Source: Nitrosococcus halophilus Nc 4
GTDB taxonomy: Bacteria; Pseudomonadota; Gammaproteobacteria; Nitrosococcales; Nitrosococcaceae
DNA length: 64,000 nt
NCBI RefSeq assembly: GCF_000024725.1
Contig: NC_013960.1
Location: 1,696,261 to 1,760,260 of the forward strand
Direction: 5' to 3'
Shown here piece by piece: positions 10,347 to 45,107 of this stretch (within the stretch, counting starts at the first letter, position 1; every line of letters starts with the position of its first letter). The notes under the pieces are model-generated. The model ran no database searches. It was not told where the DNA came from and worked only from the letters and a program-made list of their open reading frames with translations. A program made the translations under genes and the position numbers.

Positions 10347-12080
<1,734 letters not shown>

Positions 12081-12088: not shown

Positions 12089-12380
12089 GGGCTTTCTCCC
12101 GGGAAAGACGAGACGGATAGCCTGCATGGGTGGTTGCCGCCGTCAGGGCGGAAAGAGTCGTCTTTTCGTCCTCGAATGTCACCCTCGCGGTTTTATTAGC
12201 AAGGGAGATTTCCACCTTCTGCACCCCGTCTAGGGCTTCTAGGGCCTTGCGAACCGTGACCGGGCAGAGGGCGCAGGTCATGTTCTCTACCTCAAGGGTG
12301 ACGGTCTTTTCACCCGCCCAGGCCCCGGCAGTACTCAGCAAACCGACCATAAAAACCAGCACAATAACCCCGTGTTTCAT
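12081..12380 (-). CDS. merP: Periplasmic mercury-binding protein MerP
   Basis: A 99-residue HMA-fold protein that captures Hg(II) in the periplasm and passes it to MerT or MerF. A signal peptide ends at AWAGEK (about residue 23). The metal motif is MTCALC, corresponding to GMTCxxC with Gly replaced by Asn (ENMTCALCPVTVRKAL). The rest is the regular beta-alpha-beta fold. Second gene of the operon, with merT 12 bases upstream. Confidence 0.92.
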
Positions 12381-14399: not shown

Positions 14400-14524
14400 A
14401 TCCTTATCGCTGTTTTCTTGCGCCGCACTCGCCTAAAGGGGGTGCGTTGAGGCGCTGTCTTGTGTCCGCTATCTGTGGACGTTTCATAAGCGATGAAGAT
14501 TTTTCAACATTTAAGCTTTGGACG

Positions 14525-15754
14525 ATGAAAAGTAAAAGTATATTTACTGCACTTAGTGTGGTTTTGGTCGGGCTTGTTCTGGCCTGGCTTATCCTCCATG
14601 AGAAAGAAGAATTACCTAATGGGCATGCTGAACAGGAAGTCCATGGAGATCATAAAGCTGAGCATGAAAAACATGGGGGTCATGAGAGAGAGGGAAAGGA
14701 AGAGAGAATCGAGCTGAAGCCGGGAGCCATTGAAGAGGCGGGGATCGGTATCAAAGTGGCCGGTCCCGCTTTTATTAAAACGACCCTGTCCTTTCCTGGC
14801 GAAATTCAGTACAACCCTCGGCGGGTAGCCCATGTAGTGCCTCGAGTTAAAGGAGTAGTCATTGAGGTACGTAGGTTTCTGGGCGACAAGGTGAAGGATG
14901 GCGATATCCTGGCGGTGCTGGAAAGCCGGGAGTTGGCAGATTTGAAAAGCCAGTACTTGATTGCCCTTAAGGGGCTGGAGCTGGCTCAGGAGATCTTTGT
15001 GCGGGAGGAACGCCTGTGGAAAGAAAAGGTCTCCGCCGAGCAGGACTACCTCGTGGCTAAGAAAAATCTGGCCGAGGCCCAGGTTCTGGTGGATGCCGCC
15101 GCTCAAAAGCTCCATGCTCTGAGCTTCTCCAAGGCGGATTTACAGGCCATGGGTTCGGAGTCTGCAGCCCTTTTCAGCCGTTATGAATTGGAGGCTCCCT
15201 TCGCCGGGGAGGTGGTGGAAAAACACCTGGCGCTGGGGGAGGCCGTTACCGCCGAGGCGAAAGTCTATACCATCGCCGATCTGGCGACTGTCTGGGGTGA
15301 GATTACCGTCTATAGCAAAGACTTAAACCAGATTCAGCCAGGCCAGGAAGTAACGTTGAAAGCGACCGATATGGCGCTTTCCACAGAGGGCAAGGTGTTT
15401 TATATGGGACCGTTAGTGGGGCAGCAGACCCGTTCGGCCAAAGCCTATGTGGAGATTCCCAACCCCCAAGGGCGCTGGCGTCCGGGGATGTTCATCACCG
15501 TGGAGGTGGTGTTGGAGGAAAACAAGGTTCCGGTGGCGGTGATTGCCGAGGCGGTCCAAACCTATCAGGATCGCCCGGTAGTCTTCGTCCAGCACGGAAA
15601 TTTTTTCGAACCCCGGTCGGTGGTACTAGGCAGAGGAAAGGGCCAATGGGTGGAGGTGCGCCAGGGACTCTCGGCGGGCGAGCGCTACGTCGCCAGCAAC
15701 AGCTTCGTGCTCAAATCCGAGCTCGGTAAATCCGCCGCCACCCATCAGCATTAA
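14525..15754 (+). CDS. czcB: Membrane fusion protein of CzcCBA-type efflux pump
   Basis: Periplasmic adaptor for the CzcA pump, about 409 residues from ATG 14525 (MKSKSIFTALSVV); the longer frame from 14447 lacks a signal sequence at its start. After the anchor helix is a His-rich linker (EHEKHGGHERE) that may bind Zn/Co/Cd. The lipoyl halves (RVAHVVPRVKGVVIEV; APFAGEVVEKHLALGEAV), the alpha-hairpin (about residues 140-215) and the beta-barrel (VWGEITVYSKDLNQIQPGQ) follow. A czcC outer-membrane gene is not adjacent, so an outer-membrane channel must come from elsewhere, perhaps one of the two CusC proteins. Confidence 0.88.
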   Translation: MKSKSIFTALSVVLVGLVLAWLILHEKEELPNGHAEQEVHGDHKAEHEKHGGHEREGKEERIELKPGAIEEAGIGIKVAGPAFIKTTLSFPGEIQYNPRRVAHVVPRVKGVVIEVRRFLGDKVKDGDILAVLESRELADLKSQYLIALKGLELAQEIFVREERLWKEKVSAEQDYLVAKKNLAEAQVLVDAAAQKLHALSFSKADLQAMGSESAALFSRYELEAPFAGEVVEKHLALGEAVTAEAKVYTIADLATVWGEITVYSKDLNQIQPGQEVTLKATDMALSTEGKVFYMGPLVGQQTRSAKAYVEIPNPQGRWRPGMFITVEVVLEENKVPVAVIAEAVQTYQDRPVVFVQHGNFFEPRSVVLGRGKGQWVEVRQGLSAGERYVASNSFVLKSELGKSAATHQH

Positions 15755-15770
15755 TTCAGGAAGGGAAGCC

Positions 15771-18700: not shown

Positions 18701-18914
18701 CATTCGCCAAGGGGCCCTCACCCGCCTACGCCCCGTGTTCATGACCGCTGTGACGGATGCCCTGGGCTTTGTGCCCATGGCCCTGGCCACCAGCACGGGC
18801 GCGGAAGTGCAACGGCCCTTGGCTACGGTGGTAATCGGGGGGATTATTTCCTCTACTCTGTTGACTCTCCTGGTGCTGCCGGTGCTTTACCGGCTATTCC
18901 ATAAGAAGGATTAA
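15771..18914 (+). CDS. czcA: Heavy-metal RND efflux pump, CzcA type
   Basis: A 1047-residue HME-RND pump, probably for Zn/Co/Cd. It begins with GTG at 15771 after GGAAGGGA. The family marks are RLPIDAVPDITNIQVQINT after TM1, ETRSISKYGLSQVTVIF, and the proton-relay motif DFGIIVDGAVVIVENS with D408 and the following Glu. The periplasmic segment FNELLSGVKADVAVKVFGDD is of CzcA type and lacks the CusA methionine. Twelve helices are expected. It forms an operon with czcB (16-base gap). Confidence 0.93.
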   Translation: MFERLLRFSIEHRRLVMLATLGLILLGVYNFQRLPIDAVPDITNIQVQINTAAPGYSPLETEQLITFPVELAMLGAPQLKETRSISKYGLSQVTVIFEEGTDIYFARQQISERIQQVKGELPSGIEPQMGPVATGLGEIVLWTMEAEPEARQPDGTPVTSTYLRTLLDWVIRPQLLTLPGVTEVNSIGGYKKQYHVTPSPEKLMAYGLSFQDLITALVENNQMKGAGYIERHGEQLLVRVPGRVYTLEEIRNIRVGTHQGVPIIVNDVAKVLLGKELRTGGATKDGQETVLGTAFMLMGENSRSVAQAVGEKLHEANRSLPEGVEAKPFYDRTNLVDKAIVTVRNNLVEGAALVIAVLFFLLGNIRAALITAMVIPLSMLFAITGMVETGVSANLLSLGAIDFGIIVDGAVVIVENSVRHLAEAQRRLQRPLTLAERLKVVYESSEEARRAILFGQMIIMVVYVPIFALSGVEGKMFHPMAQTVIMALLGAMILSITFVPAAVALFIGRRVSEKENLFMRWARKAYLPILNFALHHRTLMVTSAVVIVALSGLLATRLGTEFVPSLDEGDIALQVLRTPGTGLNQSIAMQKEVEQALNTFPEVETVAARIGTAEVATDVMGPNISDTYIMLKPQEEWPDPDRPKEDLIEAMSQRIARLPGANYEFTQPIELRFNELLSGVKADVAVKVFGDDRSVLLETAEQIATVLRTVPGATDVRVEQVTGLPVLTVNIKRPELARYGLNVADIQRIVEAAMGGVATGKVYQGDRRFDLVVRLPEQYRVDVEALRRLPILLPPDHEGRVVAAQAAAPSYIPLSTVAEVQVRPGPNQISREDSKRRVTTTFNVRGRDLGSVVAEAQAKIQVQVKIPPGYWLDWGGQFELMREAAERLSLVVPIALLLIFIFLYSTFGNLKDGLLVFTGVPFALTGGVLGLWLREIPLSISAGVGFIALSGIAVLNGLVMITFIRLLRGQGLALEEAIRQGALTRLRPVFMTAVTDALGFVPMALATSTGAEVQRPLATVVIGGIISSTLLTLLVLPVLYRLFHKKD

Positions 18915-19144: not shown

Positions 19145-19894
19145 ATGGCAAATTGCTGTGAAGATAAAAGCTGTGAGATCACCGTTATGCGCGAACGTCA
19201 CGGACGTGTGCTGTGGGTCGTGCTCATTATTAATGCGGTCATGTTTCTTATCGAAGGTACGGCGGGTCTTATTGCTCACTCCACGTCATTGCTTGCCGAT
19301 GCCCTAGACATGCTGGGCGATGCGCTGGTGTACGGGTTCAGTCTGTTTGTCGTGGCTCGCTCGGCACGCTGGCAGGCGAGTGCGGCTTTGGTGAAGGGAA
19401 TCTTCATGCTTGCTTTTGGCCTTGGCGTGTTGGTCGAAGCCTTCTATAAGGTGTTTCATCCGATCATGCCGGGCGTGGAGACGATGGGCATCGTCGGTGC
19501 GATGGCGCTTGCGGCAAATCTTGTTTGTTTTTCCCTGCTCTACCGCCATCGGGATGATAATCTCAACATGAGTTCCACTTGGCTGTGCTCGCGAAATGAC
19601 TTGATTGCCAATATCGGAGTATTGGCGGCCGCTGGCGGCAGTTTCTTGCTTGCCTCACGCTGGCCGGATATTATCGTCGGCGGGATGATTGCCGTTCTGT
19701 TCCTCAGTTCCTCCCTCAGTGTTTTGCGGCAATCCATTCGAGTACTGCGCATGCCGCCTGATTTATCTGCTCAAGAGGTAATCCCGTGGTTGCACACGTC
19801 GCAGGCAAAGGCTGATCTTGATGAGGCAATAGCTTGGGCAGAGGAACATCCGCCAGCGGAGACGGGTTTCGATGAGTTAGAGCGCAAGATTTGA
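19145..19894 (+). CDS. Cation diffusion facilitator family transporter
   Basis: A 249-residue CDF-family membrane protein exporting divalent cations (probably Zn, possibly Co/Cd) by proton antiport. The start follows GAGGAG by seven bases. A Cys motif (NCCEDKSC) heads the protein. TM2 carries ADALDMLGDALVYG with the first Asp pair, and TM5 carries SRNDLIANIGVLAA, where the family often has HxxxD, here an Asp/Asn version known from a ZnT-like subgroup. The cytoplasmic C-terminal domain is short, ending EEHPPAETGFDELERKI. Downstream of czcBA, it complements the pump by moving cytosolic metal to the periplasm. Confidence 0.85.
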   Translation: MANCCEDKSCEITVMRERHGRVLWVVLIINAVMFLIEGTAGLIAHSTSLLADALDMLGDALVYGFSLFVVARSARWQASAALVKGIFMLAFGLGVLVEAFYKVFHPIMPGVETMGIVGAMALAANLVCFSLLYRHRDDNLNMSSTWLCSRNDLIANIGVLAAAGGSFLLASRWPDIIVGGMIAVLFLSSSLSVLRQSIRVLRMPPDLSAQEVIPWLHTSQAKADLDEAIAWAEEHPPAETGFDELERKI

Positions 19895-20939: not shown

Positions 20940-20989
20940 GGGTGGGCCAATATCCGTATAGGATCAGTGCACTTCCAGGAAATAAGGAG

Positions 20990-22456
20990 ATGTTTAAGAT
21001 TAAAAAATTTTTAGCCTATTTAATGGCAAATACATTCAGTAAGTGGGTGTTTCTATATGCCGGGGCAGGTGGGTTGTGGGCCTTTTCAATAGTAGCTTTA
21101 GCAGAATCAAATTTACCCGCCTTCAAAGGGATGGAGGATACGCCTCCTCCTTGGCATGCCTCCGGCGGGCATTCTTCGGATATCCCGAGTCCCTCCCAGC
21201 GCATGAGTGAAGAACCCGCTGCAGTCCTTGGGAGGGAGGGAGCGGAGAGGGAGTTGGGTTTGCAAACCGCCATAGAGACGGCACTCCAGGACAATCCAGG
21301 CCTTGCAGAGATGCGGACCCGGGCTGAGGCCATGGCCGCCATTCCCTCCCAGGTGGGGACCCTGCCTGATCCGGTCATCAGTTTCAATGCCTTGAATCTC
21401 CCGGTTGATACCTTCGATCGCAGTCAGGAGGCCATGACCCAGTTGCAAGTTGGGATCAGCCAGGAGTTTCCCTTCCCCGGTAAGCTTGGGTTGCGGCAGA
21501 GTGCGGCGGAATATGAAGCTGCGGCTGCCCGCCATGATGTGCGTGAGATGCGGTTGCTGCTTACGCGTGATGTGAAGCAGACCTGGTGGAATTTGTTCTA
21601 TTTGGACCAAGCCTTGGAAACAGTGAAGCGTAACCAGGAATTAATGCGCCAGTTTGTGGAAATTGCTCAAACCAAGTATCGGGTGGGGCAGGGTCTGCAA
21701 CAGGATGTCCTGCTGGCCCAGGTGGAATTGTCCAAACTCTTGGATCTGGAAGTGCGGCTCACGGCCTTGCGCCGTACCGGGGAAGCGCGTCTGAATGCCC
21801 TCTTGAACTGGCCGACAGATAGTAAGCTGCGTCTTCCTCGGGGGGTGGAAACCGAATTACAACCCCTTGCGCCGGAGGAAACCTGGCAACGCCAGGCAGA
21901 GAAAAATCGGCCTTTGCTCGCGGCTGAGGAACAGCGGGTTGAAGCCGCCCGTGAACGTTTGGATTTAGCCCAAAAAGATTATTTCCCCGACTTTAAGCTG
22001 GGCGCGGCCTATGGCTTTCGCAGCGGAGATGACCCTTTGCGCCGAGAGCCCCGTGCCGATTTTGCCACCTTCATGCTCAGCATGAAGGTGCCTCTTTATT
22101 TCGGCCGCAAGCAAGCCAAGGCCGTGGACCAGCGTTCAAGTGAAGTGCTCCAACAAATCTTCGCCTTTCAAGATAGGCGGCAGCAAGTACGCCGGGAAAT
22201 CTCTACCGCCCTGGCCGACTACCGGCAAGCCCGGGAGCAGTTTCTCCTGTTCAAAACGGGGATTATCCCCCAGGCGCGGCAAACAGTGGCCTCCATGCTG
22301 GCCGGGTTCCAGGTGAACAAGGTGGATTTTTTGAATTTGGTCAGTGCCCAGATCACCCTCTACAACTTCGAAACCGAGTACTGGAAGGTGTTAGCTGAGG
22401 CTTACCAGGCCCTAGCGGCTTTAAGCGCCGCCATTGGTGAGGAACAGATTAGATGA
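20990..22456 (+). CDS. cusC: Outer-membrane efflux protein, CusC/TolC family (second copy)
   Basis: TolC-family outer-membrane channel of the second Cu/Ag-type pump. The start is uncertain: the frame opens at ATG 20942 at the edge of element A, while ATG 20990 (MFKIKKFLAYL) has AAGGAG directly adjacent, unusually close. ATG 21023 is another option. The N-terminus has a hydrophobic signal (WVFLYAGAGGLWAFSIVALA) and a long linker. OEP features: FPFPGKLGLRQSAAEYEA and the later DYFPDFKLGAAYGFRSGDD. It ends in an ATGA overlap with cusB, so translation is coupled. Confidence 0.88.
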   Translation: MFKIKKFLAYLMANTFSKWVFLYAGAGGLWAFSIVALAESNLPAFKGMEDTPPPWHASGGHSSDIPSPSQRMSEEPAAVLGREGAERELGLQTAIETALQDNPGLAEMRTRAEAMAAIPSQVGTLPDPVISFNALNLPVDTFDRSQEAMTQLQVGISQEFPFPGKLGLRQSAAEYEAAAARHDVREMRLLLTRDVKQTWWNLFYLDQALETVKRNQELMRQFVEIAQTKYRVGQGLQQDVLLAQVELSKLLDLEVRLTALRRTGEARLNALLNWPTDSKLRLPRGVETELQPLAPEETWQRQAEKNRPLLAAEEQRVEAARERLDLAQKDYFPDFKLGAAYGFRSGDDPLRREPRADFATFMLSMKVPLYFGRKQAKAVDQRSSEVLQQIFAFQDRRQQVRREISTALADYRQAREQFLLFKTGIIPQARQTVASMLAGFQVNKVDFLNLVSAQITLYNFETEYWKVLAEAYQALAALSAAIGEEQIR

Positions 22457-23838
22457 GTAAACAGACGGCGATGATTATCGCACTGGTCTCCTTAATCGCT
22501 CTGGCGGTGGGGGCGGGCGGCGGTTATTGGGTCGCTACCCAGTGGGCGCTGAAGAGGGCAGTGCCGGCCTCGGAGAAACCAGCTAAACAACCGCTCTTTT
22601 ACCGCCATCCGATGAATCCGGAAATTACCTCACCGGTTCCGGCCAAGGATACCATGGGAATGGATTACGTCCCCGTTTACCCAGACGAAGAAGAGCGCGG
22701 CAAAGGGCCTGCGGGCATGGTGAAGATCGACCCGGTCACCGTGCAGAATATTGGGGTGCGGACCGCCACTGCGGAGCGCCGCACCCTAACCCGTATCATA
22801 CGGGCGGTCGGGCGGGTCGATTACGATGAAGAACTCCTGGCACGGCCCCATCCTAAAACCGAGGGCTGGATCGAGAAACTGTTTGTTGACGAAACAGGCG
22901 CCAAGGTACAAAAAAATGAGCGGTTGCTCAGCCTCTATTCGCCGCAACTGGTGGCCACCCAGCAGGAATATCTCCTCGCCCTGCGTAATTTGGAGACCCT
23001 TAAGGCGAGTCCTTACCCGGATATTCGTCAAGGGGCGGAGGAATTGGTCCAGAGCGCCCGGGAACGGCTCCAATTATTGGATGTGCCGGAACATCAGATC
23101 CGCGAGCTGGAACAGGTTGAAAAGATCCAAAAAAATCTGCACATCCATTCCCCTTTCCATGGAGTGGTGCTCAACATTGGCGCCCGTGAAGGCCAATATG
23201 TGACGCCCCAAACGGAGCTCTATGTACTAGCCGATCTTTGCCAGGTGTGGGTTTATGTGGATGTTTATGAATATGAATTGCCTTGGGTCAAGGTGGGGGA
23301 TGAGGCCGAGATGCGTGTCGCTGCCGTTCCCGGTCGAATTTTTCACGGTACGGTCGCTTATATTTATCCCTACCTAGAGAAACAAACCCGCACTGTCCAA
23401 TTGCGTCTGGAATTTGATAATTCTGATCTACTGCTGAAGCCGGAGATGTTTGCCAATGTGACCATTCATGCCAGCAAGCAGGTGGATGCAGTGGTGGTGC
23501 CGGAGGCGGCCATTGTCCGCTCCGGCACCCGGGAGCAGGTGTTCGTCGTGCGTGGGCCCGGCAAATTTGAACCCCGGGAGGTGAAGATTGGGGTCTCCGC
23601 CGAGGGTTTCACCGAAATTTTGGAGGGACTCAAACCCGGTGAGGAGGTGGTGACCTCCAGTCAGTTTCTCATCGACTCCGAGTCCAAGCTGCGGGAGGCT
23701 ACCGCCAAAATGAAAGAACCCAAATTAGGGGCGATAACCGCCGAAAAGCAGGAACAGAGCGCCGACAAAAATGACCCCGGGATAAAGGAAGGACCTGCCA
23801 GGGATAAGCATACCCCCCAGACCCATTCAGCCCCCTAG
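22453..23838 (+). CDS. cusB: Membrane fusion protein, CusB type with heavy-metal-binding domain
   Basis: A 461-residue adaptor protein. After a signal anchor (MIIALVSLIALAVGAGGGYW) comes a heavy-metal-binding (HMBD) motif YRHPMNPEITSPVPAKDTMGMDYVPVY, split here as YRHPMNPEI and DTMGMDYVPVY with Met ligands, at about residues 50-78, typical of CusB proteins. The lipoyl, hairpin and barrel domains follow (KTEGWIEKLFVDETGAKV; VWVYVDVYEYELPWVKVGD). The C-terminal tail is charged and His-containing (DKHTPQTHSAP). It is coupled to cusC by ATGA and followed by cusA after 8 bases. Confidence 0.9.
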   Translation: MSKQTAMIIALVSLIALAVGAGGGYWVATQWALKRAVPASEKPAKQPLFYRHPMNPEITSPVPAKDTMGMDYVPVYPDEEERGKGPAGMVKIDPVTVQNIGVRTATAERRTLTRIIRAVGRVDYDEELLARPHPKTEGWIEKLFVDETGAKVQKNERLLSLYSPQLVATQQEYLLALRNLETLKASPYPDIRQGAEELVQSARERLQLLDVPEHQIRELEQVEKIQKNLHIHSPFHGVVLNIGAREGQYVTPQTELYVLADLCQVWVYVDVYEYELPWVKVGDEAEMRVAAVPGRIFHGTVAYIYPYLEKQTRTVQLRLEFDNSDLLLKPEMFANVTIHASKQVDAVVVPEAAIVRSGTREQVFVVRGPGKFEPREVKIGVSAEGFTEILEGLKPGEEVVTSSQFLIDSESKLREATAKMKEPKLGAITAEKQEQSADKNDPGIKEGPARDKHTPQTHSAP

Positions 23839-23846
23839 GAGGTAAG

Positions 23847-26800
23847 ATGATTAAGTTTATTATCGATGCCTCCTTCCGGAATAAGTTTCTGGTGCTGATT
23901 GCCGCGCTGCTGCTGGTGGCCGTGGGTCTCTGGACCCTAAAAAACACCCCCCTGGATGCGATCCCGGACCTTTCCGATGTCCAGGTGATTGTGTTTACCG
24001 AATATCCGGGGCAGGCGCCCCAGGTGGTGGAAGATCAGGTCACGTATCCCCTGACTACCGCCATGTTGGCGGTGCCCTATGCCAAGGTGGTGCGGGGGTA
24101 TTCCTTCTTCGGCCTTTCTTTTGTCTACATCATCTTCGAAGATGGCACCGACATGTACTGGGCCCGTTCCCGGGTGCTGGAGTACCTCAACTATGTCCGC
24201 GGCAGGCTCCCGGCGGGAATCAATCCTTCTTTAGGGCCCGATGCCACGGGGGTAGGCTGGGTCTACGAGTATGCTTTGGTGGATCGGAGTGGAAAACACG
24301 ATCTGGCCCAATTGCGCACCATCCAGGACTGGTATCTGCGCTATCCGCTACAGACGGTCCCAGGCGTGGCTGAAGTGGCCTCCATCGGGGGATTTGTCAA
24401 GCAGTATCAGGTGGAGGTGGACCCTAACGCCTTGCTGGCTTACCACATCCCCCTCTCCAAGGTGAAGCAGGCCATCCAACGCTCCAATAAGGATGTGGGC
24501 GGACGCCTAGTGGAAATGGCTGAGACCGAATATATGGTTCGCGGTCTAGGCTATATCCAGTCCATTGAAGATATCAACAACATCCCGGTGGGGGTGGATA
24601 GGCAAGGCACGCCTATCCGTATCGCAGATGTGGCCCATGTCCACTTAGGGCCTGAGTTGCGCCGCGGCCTGGCCGAACTCAATGGGGAAGGGGAAGTGGC
24701 CGGTGGGGTGGTGGTCATGCGTTATGGGGAAAATGCCCTGGCCACTATCCAGCGGGTGCGGGCCAAGCTGGAGCAATTAAAGCAGGCGTTGCCGGAAGGG
24801 GTGGAAATCGTACCCGTGTACGATCGGGGTGCGCTTATCGAGCGGGCGGTGGACAGTCTCCAGGAGACCCTCCTTCAGGAGGTGATCATCGTCAGCCTCG
24901 TCCTTGGGCTCTTTCTATTCCATCTCCGTTCTTCTTTGGTGGCCATTTTGGCTTTGCCTATGGCGGTCCTCATCGCCTTTATTATCATGAAAGGGCAGGG
25001 ACTCAACGCTAACATCATGTCTTTGGGGGGCATTGCCATTACCATCGGGGCCATGGTGGATGCCGCTGTCGTGATGATTGAAAATGCCCATAAGCATCTG
25101 GAGCGCGCCGCCCGGGACAAAGGTAGCCCCCTGACCCGCCATGAGCGCTGGGCGACAGTAGAGGTCGCCGCCAAAGAGGTGGGGCCGGCGCTATTTTTCT
25201 CCCTGGCCATCATGACCGTGTCTTATTTGGCCATCTTCACCCTCGAAGCTCAGGAAGGCAGGATGTTTAAGCCCCTGGCCTTCACCGCGACTTATACCAT
25301 GGCGGCCGGGGCAGTTCTTGCCATTACTTTGGTTCCCTTGCTGATGGGGTATTTCATTCGGGGCAAGATCCTGCCGGAGAAAAAAAACCCGGCTAATCGT
25401 CTCCTGCATTTCCTGTTTGCGCCGGCAGTCCGTCAGGCTTTGCGTTTTCACAAAACTACACTGGTTATTGCTTTTATTTTACTTGGAGCGACCCTTTATC
25501 CAGTAGCTAAAACCGGCAGTGAGTTCATGCCGCCCCTGGATGAAGGGGATATTCTTTACATGCCTAGCGCCTATCCGGGCATCTCCATCACCAAAGCCAA
25601 GGAGGTGTTGCAGCAGACTGATAAGATCTTGAGCACTTTTCCCGAGGTCCATCGTGTCTTCGGCAAAGCGGGGCGGGCGGAGACCGCCACCGATCCGGCG
25701 CCCCTTTCCATGTTTGAGACCACAGTGCAGCTCAAGCCCAAGGAAGAATGGCCGGATCCCAGCAAAACGACCAAAGAATTGATGGATGAAATGGATGCCG
25801 CTATCCAGTTTCCAGGGATTACCAACGCCTGGACCATGCCCATCAAAACCCGGATTGATATGCTGTCTACGGGGATCAAAACCCCTGTGGGGATCAAGGT
25901 GAACGGACCGGATCTGGCGGTGTTGGAACAGGTGGCCGGCGACATCGAGCGGACGCTGAAGGGGCTTCCGGAGACCTTATCCGCTTTCGGGGATAAAGCC
26001 GCCGGGGGCTACTACTTGGATTTCGAGATTTCTCGCGAGGAGGCGGCCCGCTATGGGCTGACTATGGGGGATGTACAAGATGTGATCCAGACCGCCATTG
26101 GTGGCATGAAGGTGACGGAAACCGTAGAGGGGCTGGAACGTTATCCGGTGAATCTGCGCTATCCCCGGGAGCTGCGCGACAATCTGACCCAACTGAAACG
26201 AACTTTGATCCCCACCCCCACCGGCACCCAAATCCCTTTGTCTCAAGTGGCTGATCTCCGGTTACATCGAGGTCCGCCTGTGATCAAGAGCGAGAACTCC
26301 CGGCCTAATGCCTGGGTGTATGTGGATATCAAATCCTCGGATGTGGGGGGCTATGTGGCTAAAGCCAAGGAGGTGGTGCAGCGGGAAGTTGATATCCCAC
26401 CCGGCTACACTTTGAGTTGGTCGGGTCAGTATGAGTACATGGCGCGGGCGGCCGAGCGGTTGCAGATTGTGGTGCCGTTGACCCTGTTGATAATTTTTTT
26501 GCTGCTGTACCTTAACTTCCGCAGTATTACTGAACCGCTGCTCGTGATGGGCTTTATTCCCTTCAACCTCATCGGTGGTTTCTGGTTGCTGTATTGGCTA
26601 GATTTCAATCTGTCTGTAGCGGTAGCGGTGGGATTCATTGCCTTGGCGGGTATGGGGGCTGAAACGGCGGTGCTAAAATTGACCTTTATCGACCAGGAAC
26701 TGGCCCAGCGCCGTCAAGCCAAGCTAAAAAAGCGCCAGGAGGGAGAAAATGCGCCTCCTTCCTCCAAGGTTCTGCGCTTGTCGTCCAAGGAGATCATGTC

Positions 26801-27158
26801 GGCGGCTTATGCGGGGACGATGGGCCGGGTACGTCCTGTCTTCATGGCTGATTTTTCCACCATCGCCGGTCTCTTGCCTATCATGTGGAGCTCGGGCACC
26901 GGAGCCGAGACCATGCAACGAATTGCCGCCCCCCATGGTGGGTGGCTTGGTCAGCGTCATGATCATGAACCTGTTGGTATTGCCGGTGTTTTATGGGGTG
27001 ATCTTGCAGGTTCAGGAAAGGTTTCGCGGAAGGTGAAAAGTGGATTTTGGAAAAAAACTAGTCTCCGAGCATTGTTTAGAAGTGCTTTAGTATTTTGCAC
27101 TCTGAGGTTTATTCCCTGCTTGTGTAATGGATTGAGTTTAAACCTCAGGGATCGCTAG
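23847..27158 (+). CDS. cusA: Heavy-metal RND pump, CusA type, frameshifted at C-terminus
   Basis: Proton-driven Cu(I)/Ag(I)-type exporter preceded by a strong AGGAGGTAAG. It has IPDLSDVQVIVFTEYPG, the proton-relay Asp D405 in GAMVDAAVVMIENAHK and the Met-containing segment DMLSTGIKTPVGIKVNG as in E. coli CusA. Homology holds to GAETMQRIAAP. There a run of six C (26929-26934) shifts the frame and yields an unrelated tail of about 75 residues ending at 27158. The expected ending, MVGGLVSVMIMNLLVLPVFY, is in the +1 frame and stops at 27036. With five C the protein would be about 1062 residues. The last helix is thus lost as sequenced; it may be a sequencing error or a slippage-prone run. Confidence 0.88.
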   Translation: MIKFIIDASFRNKFLVLIAALLLVAVGLWTLKNTPLDAIPDLSDVQVIVFTEYPGQAPQVVEDQVTYPLTTAMLAVPYAKVVRGYSFFGLSFVYIIFEDGTDMYWARSRVLEYLNYVRGRLPAGINPSLGPDATGVGWVYEYALVDRSGKHDLAQLRTIQDWYLRYPLQTVPGVAEVASIGGFVKQYQVEVDPNALLAYHIPLSKVKQAIQRSNKDVGGRLVEMAETEYMVRGLGYIQSIEDINNIPVGVDRQGTPIRIADVAHVHLGPELRRGLAELNGEGEVAGGVVVMRYGENALATIQRVRAKLEQLKQALPEGVEIVPVYDRGALIERAVDSLQETLLQEVIIVSLVLGLFLFHLRSSLVAILALPMAVLIAFIIMKGQGLNANIMSLGGIAITIGAMVDAAVVMIENAHKHLERAARDKGSPLTRHERWATVEVAAKEVGPALFFSLAIMTVSYLAIFTLEAQEGRMFKPLAFTATYTMAAGAVLAITLVPLLMGYFIRGKILPEKKNPANRLLHFLFAPAVRQALRFHKTTLVIAFILLGATLYPVAKTGSEFMPPLDEGDILYMPSAYPGISITKAKEVLQQTDKILSTFPEVHRVFGKAGRAETATDPAPLSMFETTVQLKPKEEWPDPSKTTKELMDEMDAAIQFPGITNAWTMPIKTRIDMLSTGIKTPVGIKVNGPDLAVLEQVAGDIERTLKGLPETLSAFGDKAAGGYYLDFEISREEAARYGLTMGDVQDVIQTAIGGMKVTETVEGLERYPVNLRYPRELRDNLTQLKRTLIPTPTGTQIPLSQVADLRLHRGPPVIKSENSRPNAWVYVDIKSSDVGGYVAKAKEVVQREVDIPPGYTLSWSGQYEYMARAAERLQIVVPLTLLIIFLLLYLNFRSITEPLLVMGFIPFNLIGGFWLLYWLDFNLSVAVAVGFIALAGMGAETAVLKLTFIDQELAQRRQAKLKKRQEGENAPPSSKVLRLSSKEIMSAAYAGTMGRVRPVFMADFSTIAGLLPIMWSSGTGAETMQRIAAPHGGWLGQRHDHEPVGIAGVLWGDLAGSGKVSRKVKSGFWKKTSLRALFRSALVFCTLRFIPCLCNGLSLNLRDR
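27102..27148. terminator. Possible bidirectional terminator hairpin
   Basis: CTGAGGTTTA (27102-27111) and TAAACCTCAG (27139-27148) form a perfect 10 bp stem with a 27-base loop between the convergent cusA and the minus-strand gene at 27145. No T-run follows, so the call is weak. Confidence 0.3.
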
Positions 27159-31362: not shown

Positions 31363-34149
31363 ATGCCGCACACCGCACACCGCTCATCCCAGGAAGCACA
31401 GCGTCCCAAAAAGCAGACCCCGGAGGAGCATAAAGCCCATCACGACCGATTCGCCGGGAGCGAATCGGGACCTCCGCAGGAGGCCCGAAGGGGTCGCGCC
31501 AGGGAGGGCGCGCCTCAAGGCCACGACCACGCGACCATGGTCGCGGATTTTCGCCGCCGGTTTTGGATTTCCTTAATCCTGACATTCCCTATTCTGGCCC
31601 TCTCGCCCATGATCCAAGAGGCGCTGAACCTAAAGCAGATGCTCGCCTTTCCCGGATCCTTATACCTCTTATTTGGGTTGGCCAGTGGGGTCTTCTTTTA
31701 TGGGGGTTGGCCTTTTATCAAAGGACTGTTTAATGAGCTGAAGCAGCGCCAGCCCGGGATGATGACCTTAATCTCCCTGGCGATCATGGTGGCCTATTTC
31801 TATTCGAGCGCGGTGGTCTTTGGGCTGTCGGGCAAGATCTTTTTCTGGGAACTGGCCACCCTGATTGATGTCATGTTGCTCGGTCACTGGATCGAGATGA
31901 AATCGGTGATGGGGGCCTCGGGTGCGCTGGAAGCGTTAGTGCGGTTAATGCCTACGGAAGCCCACCGCTTAAAGGGCGATAACACCACCGAGGAGGTCCC
32001 GGTCACGGAGCTTAAACCGGGCGATCGGGTGGTGGTCAAGCCGGGAGAGAAAGTCCCCACAGATGGTCTTATCGTTGAGGGCACCTCCAGCTTGAACGAA
32101 GCGATGTTGACTGGGGAATCCAAGCCGGTCACCCGCAGTGAAGGGGAAGAGGCCATCGGCGGCGCGCTTAATGGGGAAGGGGCGCTGGTGCTGGAGATCC
32201 AAAAGACGGGAGCTGAAACCTACCTCTCCCAAGTTATCGAAATGGTCCGCCAGGCCCAAGGTTCTCGTTCCCGCACCCAGGATTTAGCCAACCGCGCCGC
32301 CCAATGGCTGACCTATATTGCCCTCTCGGTGGGTGGGCTGACGCTCCTGGCCTGGTTTCTCCTGGGGGAATCCTTTGAATTTGCCTTAGAGCGGATGGTG
32401 ACGGTGATGGTCATCACCTGCCCCCATGCGTTGGGATTGGCGGTGCCCTTGGTGGTGGCGGTGAGCACTTCCCTGGCTGCGCTCAATGGCCTATTAATCC
32501 GCAACCGGGCCTCCTTTGAACGAGCCCGGAATCTGCAGGCCATTGTCTTTGATAAGACCGGGACCCTCACCGAGGGTCGCTTTGGGGTTTCCGATGTCAT
32601 CCCTCTGGCGGATTTAGATGAAAAAGCCCTATTACACTTGGCCGCCTCCCTAGAGCAACAGTCGGAGCACCCCATTGCCCAAGGAATTGTAGAGGCGGCT
32701 CAAGAAAAAGGCATCTCACTTAGCAAAATCAAGGCGTTTCAGAATTTGCCGGGGCGTGGCGCCCAGGCCGTGATTGAGAAACAGCAAATCAAGGTGGTCA
32801 GTCCCGGTTATCTCAAAGAGCAGGAACTGGAAGTCCAGGATGAGCGCCTGAGCGAAGTGGCGGCCCAAGGCAAGACCGTGGTTTATGTCCTCGGCGAGGG
32901 GAAAATCCTGGGGGCTATTGCGCTGGCGGATATTATCCGCGAGGAATCCTTTGAGGCCATTGCCCATCTCAAGGAAATGGGCATTCAGTGCATGATGCTG
33001 ACGGGAGATAGCCGCGCCGTGGCTACCCATGTGGCCAAGGAGCTGGGATTAGATGATTATTTTGCCGAAGTGCTGCCCCATGAAAAGGCGGCCAAAATTC
33101 GCGAGGTAAAGTCCCGAGGATTGGTGGTGGCCATGGTGGGGGATGGGGTGAATGATGCCCCGGCCTTGGTAGAGGCTGATTTAGGAATTGCCATTGGCGC
33201 GGGGACTGACGTGGCCATCGAGTCCGCGGACATTGTCCTGGTCCGTAACGACCCCCGGGATGTGTCCGCCACATTGGGTTTATCTCGCGCCACTTACGGC
33301 AAGATGATTCAGAACTTGCTCTGGGCCACCGGCTACAACACAGTGGCTATTCCGCTGGCTGCTGGCGTTGCCTATCCTATTGGGTTGGTGCTCTCGCCGG
33401 CGGTAGGGGCAGCGCTCATGTCGGTGAGCACGGTCATTGTGGCCATCAATGCCAAGCTCCTGGAACGTTACCGAGCCAAGATGGGGGAGGAAAAAGAGGA
33501 GGAAGCCCCGCCCACCGCAGTCAAACCGGCGCCGGCGCCCGCAAGGGAGTCCAAATATCAATGGGTAGTGCCCGCGACAGTCATTTTTTTGATGGCTGCC
33601 GTGTTGGTCGGGGGTATTTTATGGGTGCAACTGGGCGGGAAAATAAAAGAGGAAACCCCCACCGTGGCAGAGGCGGAGAAAGAGACACCAGCAGCTCCCC
33701 AGCCTACCGAACCGCTACCCAGTGGTGAAACGAGCATCGCCAGGGCGCCCCCTAGTGAGGAGGTGGCGCCCCCACCGAAAAAGCCTGCAGAAGTGGCTCA
33801 GCCTCCCACACTACCAGAGAAGGCGCCTGAGAAACCTGAAGCCCCAGTAGAGAAAACCCCGGTGACTCCGCCCTCGGAACGTCCCCGTAAAAAGGTCGAA
33901 GAAGTCGCACCAGCACCTCCTTCCACACCGGCAGCCAAAGAAAAACCAGAGAAGGTCGAAGTGGCCCCGGCGACGCCGAAGACCGTAACCGTCCAATCGG
34001 GAGATACCCTCTCTCGGATTGCAGAGCGCATCTACGGCGATCCCATGCAGTGGCGTCTTATCTATGACGCCAATCGGGACCAGCTCGAGAACCCTGATCA
34101 GATAAGAGTGGGGATGAAACTTACCCTGCCTCCCTCCAGTAATGAATAA
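31363..34149 (+). CDS. copB: CopB-type P1B ATPase fused to a LysM domain
   Basis: A 928-residue protein joining a heavy-metal P-type ATPase to a peptidoglycan-binding module. The ATPase has the CPH metal motif of CopB/P1B-3 pumps (ITCPHALGLAVP, C353), the phosphorylated Asp D397 in DKTGTLTEG, the TGES and GDGVND motifs. The His-rich N-terminus (HKAHH...GHDH) is interrupted at residues 28-51 by translated element A (RFAGSES). After the usual last helices (to about residue 705) come an extra helix (731-755), about 115 Pro/Glu/Lys-rich residues, and a LysM domain (875-924, VQSGDTLSRIAERIYG). With a cytosolic C-terminus of the ATPase, the extra helix would put LysM in the periplasm. I know of no described pump of this design. 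Confidence 0.88.
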   Translation: MPHTAHRSSQEAQRPKKQTPEEHKAHHDRFAGSESGPPQEARRGRAREGAPQGHDHATMVADFRRRFWISLILTFPILALSPMIQEALNLKQMLAFPGSLYLLFGLASGVFFYGGWPFIKGLFNELKQRQPGMMTLISLAIMVAYFYSSAVVFGLSGKIFFWELATLIDVMLLGHWIEMKSVMGASGALEALVRLMPTEAHRLKGDNTTEEVPVTELKPGDRVVVKPGEKVPTDGLIVEGTSSLNEAMLTGESKPVTRSEGEEAIGGALNGEGALVLEIQKTGAETYLSQVIEMVRQAQGSRSRTQDLANRAAQWLTYIALSVGGLTLLAWFLLGESFEFALERMVTVMVITCPHALGLAVPLVVAVSTSLAALNGLLIRNRASFERARNLQAIVFDKTGTLTEGRFGVSDVIPLADLDEKALLHLAASLEQQSEHPIAQGIVEAAQEKGISLSKIKAFQNLPGRGAQAVIEKQQIKVVSPGYLKEQELEVQDERLSEVAAQGKTVVYVLGEGKILGAIALADIIREESFEAIAHLKEMGIQCMMLTGDSRAVATHVAKELGLDDYFAEVLPHEKAAKIREVKSRGLVVAMVGDGVNDAPALVEADLGIAIGAGTDVAIESADIVLVRNDPRDVSATLGLSRATYGKMIQNLLWATGYNTVAIPLAAGVAYPIGLVLSPAVGAALMSVSTVIVAINAKLLERYRAKMGEEKEEEAPPTAVKPAPAPARESKYQWVVPATVIFLMAAVLVGGILWVQLGGKIKEETPTVAEAEKETPAAPQPTEPLPSGETSIARAPPSEEVAPPPKKPAEVAQPPTLPEKAPEKPEAPVEKTPVTPPSERPRKKVEEVAPAPPSTPAAKEKPEKVEVAPATPKTVTVQSGDTLSRIAERIYGDPMQWRLIYDANRDQLENPDQIRVGMKLTLPPSSNE
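31442..31514 (+). repeat. Palindromic element A, copy 6, coding in copB
   Basis: CGATTCGCCGGGAGCGAATC, then GGACCTCCGCAGGAGGCCC and the GGCGCGCC-like blocks. Read as [20 protein letters not shown], a different frame from that used in merR and merA. Confidence 0.9.
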
Positions 34150-35928: not shown

Positions 35929-36672
35929 ATGGTCCGTGATCCCGTTTGTTTGATGGCTTTAGATCCCCGAAATGCTCATTCAGCTACGGAATACCGAGGT
36001 CGGACTTATTATTTTTGCTCCTCAAATTGTCGGGATAAATTTCTAGCCGATCCGGCATTATTTGTAAATAAAGCCCCTGGGATGCGCATGACGGTGGGAG
36101 TAATGGGTTCGGCCACCTCTGAAGTGCCCCTTCCCCTGGAAGAAAAAGCCTATGCCCTGGGACAGGCTGTTGCCGCCCAGGGTTTTATCCTAATGACGGG
36201 TGCTTGTCCGGGGCTTCCCTATGCCTGTGCGCGGGGCGTCCATGACTATGGTGGGCTTTCGGTAGGCATTTCGCCAGCCCTCAGCCTGGATGAACATGTG
36301 CACAAATATTATTCCCCTTCTGATGCCTTTGATGTGCTGATCTACACGGGCAGTGGTCTTATGGGCCGCGAGGTGACCAATATCCGCTCTAGTGACGTGG
36401 TGATTATCCTGGGCGGCCGCTCCGGTACCCTGGGGGAGTTTGCTATTGCCTATGATGAGGGCAAATTAATCGGCGTGCTTGAAGGCAGTGGCGGCATTAC
36501 CGAGCAACTTCCCTACATCGTGGCCAGTATGGGCGACAAAGACACAGGGGCTCGGTTAATTTATGACTCTAATCCGAAAACCCTAGTGCAACAGCTTTCA
36601 GAAGTCTATACCACCCACCATTTCAAACGGCCCTCCTGTTTTTGTGGGGAATTTGTGCCGGCTGGGGGATAG
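35929..36672 (+). CDS. YHS domain fused to LOG-like (SLOG) Rossmann protein
   Basis: A 247-residue fusion. Residues 1-48 form a YHS domain (RDPVCLMALDP, TYYFCSSNCRDKFLADP) of the kind that binds metal in copper proteins. The rest is a SLOG/LOG-like Rossmann domain of the TIGR00725 type (VGVMGSA, LMTGACPGLPYACARG, GGRSGTLGEFAIAYDEG), related to cytokinin-activating LOG proteins that hydrolyse nucleotide-ribose bonds. The canonical PGGxGTxxE motif appears as GGRSGTLGE. It ends with a Cys pair, CFCGEF. Known biological role: none that I can name. The YHS part suggests a link between metal and nucleotide-derived signals (inference). Confidence 0.8.
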   Translation: MVRDPVCLMALDPRNAHSATEYRGRTYYFCSSNCRDKFLADPALFVNKAPGMRMTVGVMGSATSEVPLPLEEKAYALGQAVAAQGFILMTGACPGLPYACARGVHDYGGLSVGISPALSLDEHVHKYYSPSDAFDVLIYTGSGLMGREVTNIRSSDVVIILGGRSGTLGEFAIAYDEGKLIGVLEGSGGITEQLPYIVASMGDKDTGARLIYDSNPKTLVQQLSEVYTTHHFKRPSCFCGEFVPAGG

Positions 36673-40386: not shown

Positions 40387-41670
40387 TCAGACAGCCGAAA
40401 GACTGTAGTCATAACCATCTCCCCTCTGTATTAGTTTGAAATTTTTCCAGTTGGCCGAGATCTTCCCGGCCTTGGCTTTCACATCAAAGGTGCCGCTAGC
40501 CCGAATGCTGGCCAGTATCCCAACATGATCGCCAGCGTACTTGCCTTGGGGTTGCGAGGGCCTGACGAGATCACCCGTTTGAAATCCCTTTACTCGCCTA
40601 CACCGCCCCGCCTTGCCGCGAGGAAAGCCATATTTGTCGGTTCTGACGACTTGCCTTGTTCCGCGCCCCGTGGCTTTGATATGTAGCGCCCGATAACCTT
40701 CAGTTATTGTCACTTGCCCAGCGCTTTCGCCAACACATGCCGCGTCTATCCAATGGTCTTTGGTATAGCCTTGGCTGATCCTGTTTTTCTTGGTGCGCCC
40801 ACCAGACCAAAAAGAAGTCGGCAATCCCACTGACTGAATAGTGCACCCGATGGCGTAGCGGGTAGCATTGACCGCCGCTGCATCTTTTAGAGGCAGCTTG
40901 GATTTGGACTGGATCTGGGTATATCCAAACTCGGCCGCCGTTTTGCTGTTCTTTTTTTTGTTGCAGGGCGCGCGGGCCAGGGTTAAATTAGATACCCGAT
41001 TACTACCCCCCCTCGATCTCGGTATAATATGCTCAACCTCTAGCGGGATATCTTTCTTATTGCAATAAGCGCACTTCCTGTCCCACTTCTCTAGCAGATA
41101 TTCGCGCACCTCATACCCCATCAACTCGCCCTGCTGATACTCAACGCCGTTAATTTCAGGGTTCTGAATTTTTTGAGTATCAAAGCGCACAGTTTCGATA
41201 TGACATTCTGAAATGGGAACTCTATCTAGCAGACGATTAAACCAGCTCGAAACGTTTTCAACCCGCGAGTTTAGCGATGGCGGCAGCCAACCCTTCGGTT
41301 TTGTTCTGTTTAGAAATCGTGGCGCACGATAGCGGGTCTTTCTGCCTCTACGACCTCGGCGCAAACTACGACGACTAGCCAGCCGCTCACGGATGGCGTA
41401 CCCGCGATGGGTAAGATTGGCGGCCCATAACACCACGCGCCCCTGTTGAGGAAAATTCCCAACTAAAGCCAGCCCGGTTATTTTGCTGCCCGGATCAACC
41501 TTAAATTCAACCGGCTGCGGGTTGGGATCAACCCTATATTTCAGGATGATCGTAAATGGCTGCATCCGATAAACCGCGGCCTTCCCGTCTCGCAACAGCC
41601 GTCTTGCCCTTGCTGGGCTGCATGGCATCAACGGTTTTCTATCAGTGTCTAATACAAAAACTCTATTCAT
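40387..41670 (-). CDS. iscB: RNA-guided endonuclease IscB
   Basis: A 427-residue IscB, the transposon-encoded relative of Cas9. Domains in order: PLMP domain (KPLMPCSPARARRLL, residues 12-26), RuvC-I with D59 (KVDPGSKITGLAL), Arg-rich bridge helix (SRRSLRRGRRGRKTRYR, 99-115), RuvC-II with E159 (HIETVRFD), HNH domain (C200, C203, catalytic H214 in EVEHIIPRSRGG), RuvC-III with H306 and D309 (DHWIDAACVG), and the C-terminal region that binds the target-adjacent motif. The HNH zinc site usually reads ACxPCN; here it is ARAPCN, so one zinc ligand is Arg233. The start codon follows a structured non-coding stretch that fits the omega RNA. Confidence 0.92.
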   Translation of the reverse strand: MNRVFVLDTDRKPLMPCSPARARRLLRDGKAAVYRMQPFTIILKYRVDPNPQPVEFKVDPGSKITGLALVGNFPQQGRVVLWAANLTHRGYAIRERLASRRSLRRGRRGRKTRYRAPRFLNRTKPKGWLPPSLNSRVENVSSWFNRLLDRVPISECHIETVRFDTQKIQNPEINGVEYQQGELMGYEVREYLLEKWDRKCAYCNKKDIPLEVEHIIPRSRGGSNRVSNLTLARAPCNKKKNSKTAAEFGYTQIQSKSKLPLKDAAAVNATRYAIGCTIQSVGLPTSFWSGGRTKKNRISQGYTKDHWIDAACVGESAGQVTITEGYRALHIKATGRGTRQVVRTDKYGFPRGKAGRCRRVKGFQTGDLVRPSQPQGKYAGDHVGILASIRASGTFDVKAKAGKISANWKNFKLIQRGDGYDYSLSAV

Positions 41671-42055: not shown

Positions 42056-42562
42056 TTATTGAGCGCATTTGTCCAGTTCCCGTTGCCGTGCCGTTATTTG
42101 GGCGTTGGTGAGCTCTTGCGAGGCGGTGAGGCACCAGCTGTAATGGTGGCCGTAGTTGGAGCTCCAGGTGGGACCAGATAGCTCGCACCCAGTAGAAAGG
42201 TTGGCTTTGTTCTGCCCTATAGAGACGATGCTGTATATGTTGCAGCGTTTATCAGCCCCCGCGGGAAATTGAACTCCTGGGCATTTAGCCAGTTGGTTTA
42301 TGCGTGCGAGATTTTCCCTTTGTGCAGTTTGGCCTGATGCATTCAGGCACCATTCATTGTGATGCTCAGGGTCAGAACTCCATCGGGGCCCAGTATAGCC
42401 ACAGTTATTTTCGATGTTTTGCGCGTTCTGGGCAACGGCAGTTTTCGTATATGTAGAACAATACATCTTACTGGCGGCATAAGAGGAAGGAGATCCTACC
42501 GCTAGCATGAGCAGCAAGAGCATGAATGAATATCGAATTTTTATTTTAAGTGACAATTTCAT
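42056..42562 (-). CDS. Exported protein with two tandem Cys/Trp modules
   Basis: A 168-residue secreted protein: signal peptide (FMLLLLMLAVGSPSSYAA) followed by two similar modules of about 60 residues. Module 1 has CSTYTKTAVAQNAQN, CGYTGPRWSSDPEHHNEWCLNA; module 2 has CNIYSIVSIGQNKAN, CELSGPTWSSNYGHHYSWCLTA. Each has four Cys if the flanking ones are included, plus the shared signature SGPxWSSxxxHHxxWCL. Disulphide-bonded repeats are likely. The HH pair in each module could bind a metal. Function unknown. The iscB element appears inserted upstream of, or behind, this gene. Confidence 0.7.
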   Translation of the reverse strand: MKLSLKIKIRYSFMLLLLMLAVGSPSSYAASKMYCSTYTKTAVAQNAQNIENNCGYTGPRWSSDPEHHNEWCLNASGQTAQRENLARINQLAKCPGVQFPAGADKRCNIYSIVSIGQNKANLSTGCELSGPTWSSNYGHHYSWCLTASQELTNAQITARQRELDKCAQ

Positions 42563-42596: not shown

Positions 42597-45107
42597 TTAT
42601 AGTTGAACAGTGCGTAAGCGTAAGGCGTTGCTTATCACTGAAACTGAGCTAAAGCTCATGGCGGTGGCGGCAATAATAGGCGATAGCAACAATCCAAAGA
42701 AAGGATACAACACACCAGCGGCAATAGGGACCCCCAGAGAATTATAAACAAAGGCAAAGAATAGATTCTGCTTGATATTTCGCATGGTCCCTTCGCTTAA
42801 GCGCCGTGCTCGGATGATCCCGCCTAGATCCCCTTTTACCAGGGTTACTCCGGCGCTTTCCATAGCAACATCCGTGCCGGTTCCCATGGCGATGCCAATA
42901 TGGGCCTGGGCGAGGGCCGGGGCATCATTAATCCCGTCCCCAGCCATGGCGACGATCCGGCCTTCTTCTTGAAGCTCTTTAACCATTGCCACTTTTCGAT
43001 CCGGTAGAATTTCGGCTTCTACCCGATGGATTCCGAGCTTCCGAGCCACTGCCTCTGCGGTTGTTTGATTATCGCCAGTGACCATGACCACTTGGACGCC
43101 TTCATTGTGAAGAGCGCGGATTGCCTCTGACGTGGTTTCTTTGATGGGATCAGCCACCCCAATGAGGCCAGCGGGTTTCTGATCAATGGCGACAAACATC
43201 ACCGTTTGGCCTTCTGCCCGCAGGGCCTCAGCCCGTTCAGAGAGAGGCCCCGGATCCAGCTCCAATTCTTCCAGTAGCTTGAGATTGCCAATGGCCACTT
43301 GGCGGTCTTCCACTTCGCCGGTGACCCCCTTGCCAGTGGATGACTGGAAATGGTGGGTCGAGGCCAATGTGAGTCCTTTTTCTTCGGCGTGACTGACGAT
43401 AGCGGCCGCCAGTGGATGCTCGCTAGCCCGCTCTAGGCTGGCCCCTAGGCGCAGAATATCCGTTTCTTCAAATCCTTCTGCGGGAACGACTTGGCTGACT
43501 TTCGGCTTACCCTCGGTTAAGGTCCCTGTTTTATCTATGACCAGGGTATCGACCTTGCGCATGACCTCAATGGCCTCGGCATTTTTGAATAATACCCCGG
43601 AAGTGGCCCCTTTCCCCATGGCGACCATGATGGACATGGGGGTCGCCAATCCTAGGGCACAGGGACAAGCGATGATGAGCACGGCAACGCTATTGACCAA
43701 GGCATAGGCCATTTTGGGCTCTGGGCCGATAAAGCCCCAGATAATGAAGGTGAGGAGGGCGATTCCCACCACCGCTGGGACAAAATAGGCCGCGACCTGA
43801 TCGGCAAGTCTTTGGATAGGGGCCCGGCTGCGTTGGGCCTCGCTCACCATTTGCACAATTTGCGCCAGCATAGTTTCGCCCCCCACCCGTTGGGCTTCGA
43901 TCTCGAGCCCCCCGGTGCCGTTGACGGTCGCACCAATGACCTGATCACCGGGGGTTTTTTCGACGGGAATAGGCTCACCCGTAATCATAGATTCATCTAT
44001 GGAACTTGAGCCCTCCACAACGATCCCGTCAACCGGTATTTTTTCTCCAGGGCGAACCCGAAGGCGATCTCCAGGATGGATTTGATCCAGGGGAACATCT
44101 TCTTCACTGCCATCGTCTCGAATTCGCCGGGCAGTTTTAGGGGCTAATCCTAACAAAGACTTAATTGCATTTCTGGTCCGGCTCCGCGCCTTGAGCTCCA
44201 ATACCTGGCCTACCAACACCAGGGTCACAATGACTCCAGCCGCCTCAAAATAGACATTGACTTGGCCACTTTCGTCCTGAAAGGAGGGGGGGAATAAGCC
44301 TGGGAATAGGGTGGCCACAAGGCTATAGGAATAGGCAACAACCACCCCCAGGCTGATCAGGGTAAACATATTAAGGTTTAAGTCGAACGCGGCTTGCCAA
44401 CTGCGGACCAGGGGGGGCCAACTGCTCCAGAGTACAATAGCGGTGGCGAGAGCTAATTCGATCGGCATGAGGTAGGGGGAAGCGATCAGATTTTCGGGAA
44501 AAGGCCCGGGAACTACATCCCCGAGAGCCATAATGACCAGCGGCACAGCGAGCAGTATGCAAACCCATAGGCCAAGGCGGAGTAGTAAGGTGGACAGACT
44601 AAGGTTAGGGTTGAATACCGAGTGCCAACCTCGGGTCAGAAAGGGCCAGCCACCCCAGAGCACAATGGGGGTCGCCAGCAGTAATTCAATAAAGTTTAGC
44701 GTTCGTGGTGTGGCCAGATTTTCAGGAAACTCTCCAGGGATGACATCTCCCATGGCAATGATGACCAGCGGCACCGCCAGTGCTGCGCTGATCCAAAAAC
44801 GCCGGGACATGTCTTCCAGTTCCGGATTACGTTCCTCCTCTAGAGTGATGGTGCGTGGTTCCAGGGCCATCCCACAGGTGGGGCATTCCCCCGGCTCGTT
44901 CTGCACCACCTCCGGATGCATGGGGCAGGTATATTCGGTTCGCGGTTTGGTGCCTGTTGGGTTCTCCCGCTCCAGTCCCATGCCGCACTTAGGGCAGGCT
45001 CCTGGGGCTTCTTCCTGGACTTCTGGGTGCATGGGACAGGTAAAAGTATCGGGGTGGCTGGACATTGAGGGAGGGTCTGTTTGGGGTTGCGTGGTTGTTT
45101 CATCCAT
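42597..45107 (-). CDS. copA: Cu(I)-exporting P1B ATPase with duplicated membrane hairpin
   Basis: An 836-residue CopA-type ATPase. Two N-terminal heavy-metal-binding motifs ([20 protein letters not shown] and the second at 60-80) replace HMA domains. Core motifs: [12 protein letters not shown] in the metal-binding helix, [16 protein letters not shown] in [15 protein letters not shown]. The first membrane hairpin occurs twice: residues about 107-170 ([16 protein letters not shown]...[11 protein letters not shown]) and about 181-248 ([16 protein letters not shown]...[11 protein letters not shown]), which makes the protein about 75 residues longer than usual and predicts ten rather than eight helices. 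The second copy joins the rest of the enzyme normally ([11 protein letters not shown]). Confidence 0.92.

Follow-up and report, generated by a model that had tools for sequence, protein, structure and literature searches.

The copA locus and its genomic surroundings

The window, i.e. the whole stretch of 64,000 nucleotides analysed here from Nitrosococcus halophilus Nc 4, carries on its minus strand a copA gene (42597..45107), identified from its open reading frame and family profiles as coding for an HMBD-type P1B-1 copper ATPase of 836 aa. The protein passes the family score with 603.5 bits against TIGR01511 (curated cut-off 397), reaches 647.1 bits against TIGR01525 (cut-off 346.25), and has Legionella CopA 3rfu as its top sequence match in the PDB (E 3.4e-267). 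Two stretches match Pfam PF19335: HMBD 1, at about residues 22-46 (44970..45044, minus strand, with borders read from the sequence), and HMBD 2, at residues 59-84 (44856..44933, minus strand).

Concerning the catalytic core, a motif scan placed the CPC motif of M4 at residues 481-483 (43659..43667, minus strand) and the DKTGT phosphorylation motif at residues 525-529 (43521..43535, minus strand). The P-type catalytic motifs are all present (TGE 376, DKTGT 525, HP 564 and GDGIND 723), as are the P1B-1 membrane motifs, namely CPC 481 in M4, YN 788 in M5 and MSFSS 817 (MxxSS) in M6. Transport residues assigned by motif or alignment are Met247, Glu304, Asp436, Tyr788-Asn789, Met817 and Ser820-Ser821. 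The first three pair in the alignment with Met148, Glu205 and Asp337 of Legionella CopA, the entry residues of that pump, Met148 being the point of copper entry. In PMC9433437, the corresponding entry residues of AfCopA are M158, E205 and D336, and it is the entry methionine and the CPC cysteines that are favoured there, a direct role of the two acids being doubted. Judging from its sequence, the protein is best read as a Cu(I)-exporting P1B-1 ATPase of the HMBD type, export being predicted.

Elsewhere in the window, positions 3299-27158 form a metal-resistance cluster. It is bordered by two RND operons, each coding for an AcrB-family pump, an HlyD/CusB-type protein and outer-membrane proteins (3299-9464, minus strand; 20942-27158, plus strand), and it also contains a pyridine-nucleotide disulphide oxidoreductase (10347-11840), a third pair of HlyD-family and AcrB-family genes (14447-18914) and a cation efflux protein (19145-19894). 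The single-copy CopA of N. oceani sits between the counterparts of the two outer RND operons. A second metal ATPase of 928 aa (31363-34149, plus strand) has at its C-terminal end a LysM domain (Pfam PF01476, residues 876-923, E 4.7e-9), which may tether it to the cell wall. It appears CopB-like by the CPH motif read in its N. wardiae relative (L017 1258-4053), in which an additional hydrophobic segment and a proline-rich stretch were noted by eye, together with a C terminus that looks similar. At 35929-36672 (plus strand), a YHS domain is fused to a SLOG cluster 4 domain.

Closer to copA, a gene at 40387-41670 (minus strand) codes for an RRXRR and HNH endonuclease protein; it may be an insertion, since no match to it was found between the conserved neighbours at the corresponding place in N. 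wardiae (L121). The gene adjoining copA (42056-42562, minus strand) codes for a protein of 168 aa with no Pfam match and, by eye, two similar halves (CSTYTKT.../CNIYSIV...); it also adjoins copA in N. wardiae, where it is 86% identical.

Tandem duplication of the MA-MB hairpin: extent, distribution and age

CopA carries a real in-frame tandem duplication of its MA-MB hairpin. A local alignment of residues 91-175 with residues 176-262 scored 208, vs. 52 for the best of 500 shuffles, and a self-comparison of the protein gave 40 identities out of 85 at an offset of exactly 76 and at most nine at the other offsets from 70 to 83. The duplicated unit is 76 codons long (228 bp), ungapped, in frame, repeated once and devoid of stops, and it spans the start of MA, MB, MB' and the first residues of M1. 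Copy 1 comprises residues 101-176 (44580..44807, minus strand) and keeps most of the canonical MA-MB residues, whereas copy 2, the derived copy, comprises residues 177-252 together with the true start of M1 (44352..44579, minus strand); clear similarity between the two begins at Trp105/Trp181. The first-pass annotation had called residues 107-170 and 181-248 paralogous, with MA-MB occurring twice, which the alignment score and the 76-residue period bear out; its residue ranges and window coordinates (44340-44810) proved right to within a few residues.

At the DNA level the copies have diverged, as had also been claimed: across 72 paired codons they are 62.5% identical, and third positions taken separately only 46%. 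So low a third-position identity means that the duplication is old and rules out a recent one. No sign of gene conversion between the copies was seen.

Within the family, the duplicated CopA was found in three of six genomes: N. halophilus, N. wardiae (L010, 94% identical to the N. halophilus protein) and G062, which belongs to another genus (L039, 70% identical). In the latter two, the copies are likewise in frame and without stops. The distance from HMBD to M1 is 169-170 residues in the duplicated pumps vs. 90-94 in the single-copy relatives whose last HMBD was recognised by the script; for many Nitrospira rows and L091 the last HMBD went unrecognised, the spacing could not be measured and a fixed stretch of 110 residues was used, L116 reads 129 since its second HMBD was unrecognised, and L092 and L107 are cut short. 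The earlier statement that the duplication is no assembly artefact holds: the same in-frame arrangement in three separate genomes, the absence of stops and dN/dS values well below 1 rule out an assembly error, a frameshift artefact or a pseudogene, to which practically no probability can be given.

Beyond the family, the duplication was called in genome searches where a match ran through both copies, under strict E-value limits. Of the 63 genomes of the order, 29 match at 1e-200 or better, the three named above being the only ones whose match runs through both copies. In even draws from the class and the phylum, 75 of 369 genomes match at 1e-250 and 65 of 398 at 1e-240, and in each case only N. 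halophilus itself spans both copies; with such limits and with draws from larger groups, duplicated pumps that are weaker matches, more diverged or unsampled could escape. A scan of genome contigs with the duplicated stretch gave 26 loci, all 24 readable ones being single-copy; the remaining two (L067 and L090), which lack a readable frame, have matches of about 290 bases, fitting one copy. As for plasmids, at least 5000 records match, and among the 30 matches listed the spans are 2,082-2,271 bases, with 26 of the 30 in two or three pieces, as expected for single-copy pumps. One scan of IMG/VR yielded no viral relatives.

The CopA of N. oceani (G001; L011) and N. watsonii (G003; L012) is of the HMBD type and comes from the same family and genus, with 64% identity over the core, but its 735-aa frame has one HMBD and one hairpin, whereas the N. 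halophilus pump has two of each. In a quick tree of the core, it forms a separate branch and is therefore not the direct single-copy ancestor of the duplicated pump, while the three duplicated pumps form one clade.

In a tree built from 57 rows and 74 columns of MA-MB units, all six copies fall into one clade (100/99), which rules out a fusion of two different CopA genes. Inside it, the copy 2 sequences form a clade of their own (99/94) and the copy 1 sequences a grade beside them; many other forks of this tree are unresolved, given the few columns, and L091 is a long branch. Between N. halophilus and G062, identity is 62% for the two first copies and 54% for the two second copies, while copy 1 and copy 2 of the same protein are 53% identical in N. 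halophilus and 28% in G062. For copy 2 the margin (54 vs. 53) is nil, so that here the argument rests on the tree. Most likely, a single duplication took place within the gene before the genera split.

Transfer between lineages after the duplication is also possible, because matches between the window and the 12.5 kb of G062 compared are limited to CopA and a frame antisense to it. The surroundings of copA in G062 (L120 1466-3057) include genes for a plastocyanin-like cupredoxin and a phage-type integrase and, on the opposite side of copA, a two-component system; these neighbours hint that the locus is mobile.

Between N. halophilus and N. wardiae, the dN/dS ratio is 0.088 for copy 1 and 0.039 for copy 2, on small counts of five and two nonsynonymous differences, respectively, and 0.033-0.13 for the other six regions. 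These ratios indicate purifying selection on each copy in this pair of Nitrosococcus species. By region, identity to G062 is 59% for copy 1, 53% for copy 2, 70-80% for the core and 56% for the N terminus.

Conserved residues and structure models

The residues of the two copies were compared with those of the 78 single-copy relatives, from 82 loci, that gave a usable row; one of the 78, L091, looks frame-shifted upstream of M1. Copy 1 keeps the proline of the LATP motif (78/78 relatives), the phenylalanine two residues past the tryptophan of the WP motif (75/78), the Asp-Met lead-in before MA and the MB kink motif, Gly152-Gly153 (44649..44654, minus strand). The second glycine of this motif is found in 77/78 relatives and in all three copy 1 sequences, the first being less conserved. 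Copy 1 departs from the relatives in having Phe in place of the Trp of 73/78 relatives and, in G062, also Arg in place of the WP tryptophan (68/78), and it is without the Asn-Met-Phe of the M1 start, each residue of which is found in 78/78 relatives. In all three species, copy 2 has Ser for the Gly, Ala or Ile for the Pro, and Pro or Tyr for the Phe; copy 2 has also lost the Asp-Met lead-in. Ser228-Ser229 (44421..44426, minus strand) thus replaces Gly-Gly, and both Ser-Ser and GDVxPG occur in all three copy 2 sequences. Copy 2 then runs into an intact LNLNMFTLI, the only place where the Asn-Met-Phe of M1 is found. Met247, at the M1 start (44367..44369, minus strand), aligned with Met148 of Legionella CopA and invariant among the relatives (78/78), accordingly follows copy 2 and not copy 1. 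Overall, 75 of the 78 relatives are closer to copy 1 than to copy 2. Ahead of M1, the copy 2 sequences of the three species share no invariant Cys, His or Met, hence no sign there of an extra metal site.

In PMC8880997 and PMC10973460, the MB' platform is the amphipathic segment that lies past the Gly-Gly kink of MB and directly before M1. The canonical order of Gly-Gly, MB' and M1 is absent here: the kink stands at 152-153 in copy 1, and the segment before M1 has Ser-Ser at 228-229. As far as these residues tell, the platform-entry arrangement is divided between the two copies, because Gly-Gly is found only in copy 1 and M1 is joined only to copy 2.

An unguided alignment matched the 19 single-copy relatives included to copy 1 and left copy 2 unpaired. 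The AlphaFold2 model made from this alignment has a mean pLDDT of 77.2 and a pTM of 0.70, with helices at 95-119, 134-152, 154-164 (MB'), 171-195, 217-241 and 247-267 (M1). The MA and MB helices of copy 1 are mostly at pLDDT 85-94 and the helices of copy 2 mostly at 33-53. The full helix list of the model can be read as ten membrane helices, with the copy 2 pair at low confidence. By Z, the best structural match of the model is AfCopA 7r0g (Z 27.9, rmsd 6.2 over 629 residues), and the comparison with LpCopA 4bbj gave Z 26.4 and rmsd 11.0. The canonical position of copy 1 is built into the input alignment; its placement in the canonical site is one that we infer from residue conservation and not from the model. 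A second AlphaFold model, with no relatives over either hairpin, has a mean pLDDT of 64.4 and places both hairpins at 27-42. Another alignment (A2), in which the N-terminal and core pieces of the relatives were separate rows, misplaced the N-terminal pieces in the rows checked and was not used.

A hydropathy scan with a cut-off of 1.6 counted eight segments, including both of copy 2, with MB of copy 1 below the cut-off. It thus speaks for the two MA helices and for the second MB; neither MB was picked up in G062. Ten membrane helices, the packing of the hairpins and an effect on copper loading are what we infer from these data as a whole.

Proposed function of the extra hairpin and comparison with known systems

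The protein is probably a canonical Cu(I) pump in which an old duplicated hairpin separates the MB' platform from M1. Copy 1 would stay in the canonical MA-MB position with its Gly-Gly-kinked platform, and copy 2 would be an extra hairpin between MB' and M1, with both ends cytosolic, giving ten helices; this agrees with the earlier expectation that an additional hairpin would keep the topology even. Transport through M4-M6 would be canonical, the extra hairpin adding no transport site. In the published model, as given in PMC9433437, CopZ docks on MB' and copper then passes to the M1 methionine. Here, copy 2 would most likely line or gate the cytosolic entry of copper, and the extra hairpin would most likely alter how the platform hands on to Met247 the copper brought by the HMBDs or by a chaperone. 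Platform and Met247 are no longer on one stretch of the chain, but they may still be neighbours in space, because the hairpin begins and ends on the same side. A copper chaperone is plausible in N. halophilus, since its genome has short HMA-domain frames, including a 79-codon frame beside the other CopA and a 103-codon frame at about 12117-12299 of the window; none of these short matches adjoins the duplicated copA.

A bolder form of this proposal is a ten-helix P1B-1 branch in which the second MA-MB hairpin, placed between platform and entry methionine, has been repurposed to gate or regulate the loading of copper in a new way. Docking platform and entry methionine are contiguous in all 78 single-copy pumps compared. 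We put this forward tentatively, as a possibility that may well not hold.

The roles of the copies might also be swapped, with copy 2 filling the canonical MA-MB site and copy 1 displaced to become an N-terminal hairpin bearing the HMBDs together with a Gly-Gly platform that is now detached. Copy 2 does run into LNLNMFTLI as the single hairpin of the relatives does, and within Nitrosococcus it is at least as constrained as copy 1 (dN/dS 0.039 vs. 0.088). The exchange is nevertheless unlikely: the family-kept Pro, Gly, Phe and Asp-Met lead-in are gone from copy 2 and kept in copy 1, and copy 2 is the more diverged in G062 (53% vs. 59% identity). Slightly less credit still goes to a passive passenger, that is, a once-duplicated hairpin that the pump tolerates in the lipid along its edge and that only holds the chain in the membrane. 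It would suit the lack of invariant metal ligands in copy 2 and the lower conservation of both hairpins relative to the core between N. halophilus and G062, but the hairpin has been kept in two genera and is under apparent purifying selection between two species, and Ser-Ser and GDVxPG recur in every copy 2 sequence, even if membrane insertion alone could explain part of this constraint.

The first-pass annotation had favoured a doubled platform, in which two equivalent docking platforms would load copper. Two MA-MB units are indeed present; however, Gly-Gly occurs only in copy 1, away from M1, while the segment next to the entry methionine belongs to copy 2 and has Ser-Ser in all three species. 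With a single Lys/Arg and a single Asp/Glu, residues 228-246 are not electropositive. This part of the annotation found no support, and two equivalent platforms are very improbable. Copy 2 as an extra hairpin after the platform of copy 1 is the reading that we retain.

That the arrangement is novel for a P1B ATPase, as first suggested, fits the partial genome and literature searches: only three duplicated pumps were found, and in the mainly open-access literature partially searched for extra, ten-helix or duplicated P1B architecture, no description of a duplicated MA-MB hairpin was found. The route of copper from chaperone or metal-binding domain to MB' and on to the first M1 methionine is still debated, according to PMC9433437 and PMC10973460. 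The duplicated pump is a natural variant in which an inserted hairpin comes between the kinked platform and the entry methionine, and it can thus serve as a test of whether the two need to be contiguous. It is also a case of a P1B ATPase seen to gain a hairpin by tandem duplication and to keep it, with an old duplication in at least three related species and a layout absent from the copper pumps compared.

As a whole, the duplicated pump departs from the eight-helix layout of LpCopA and AfCopA by its two MA-MB hairpins before M1, present in three genomes. Legionella pneumophila CopA (3rfu, 4bbj) aligns over its HMBD-like N terminus, a single MA-MB unit and the entire core, but it has only that one hairpin: its residue 141 pairs with 164 here and its residue 145 with 244, so that 77 to 79 extra residues, with the second hairpin, lie between these paired positions. 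The CopA of Archaeoglobus fulgidus (7r0g) has, according to PMC9433437, MA-MB and M1-M6 only, with no extra hairpin before M1. Across P-type ATPases, the number of helices goes from seven (P1A) to twelve (P5A), according to PMC10654040. In the portions of PMC10654040 and PMC4179477 available, ten helices are given for P2 ATPases, and P5A ATPases bear additional helices, Ma and Mb, at the N terminus. These indicate that P-type ATPases can bear extra support helices; they are, however, other subfamilies, and in the same portions their extra helices are not described as a tandem copy of the adjacent hairpin, which is what the CopA of N. halophilus carries.
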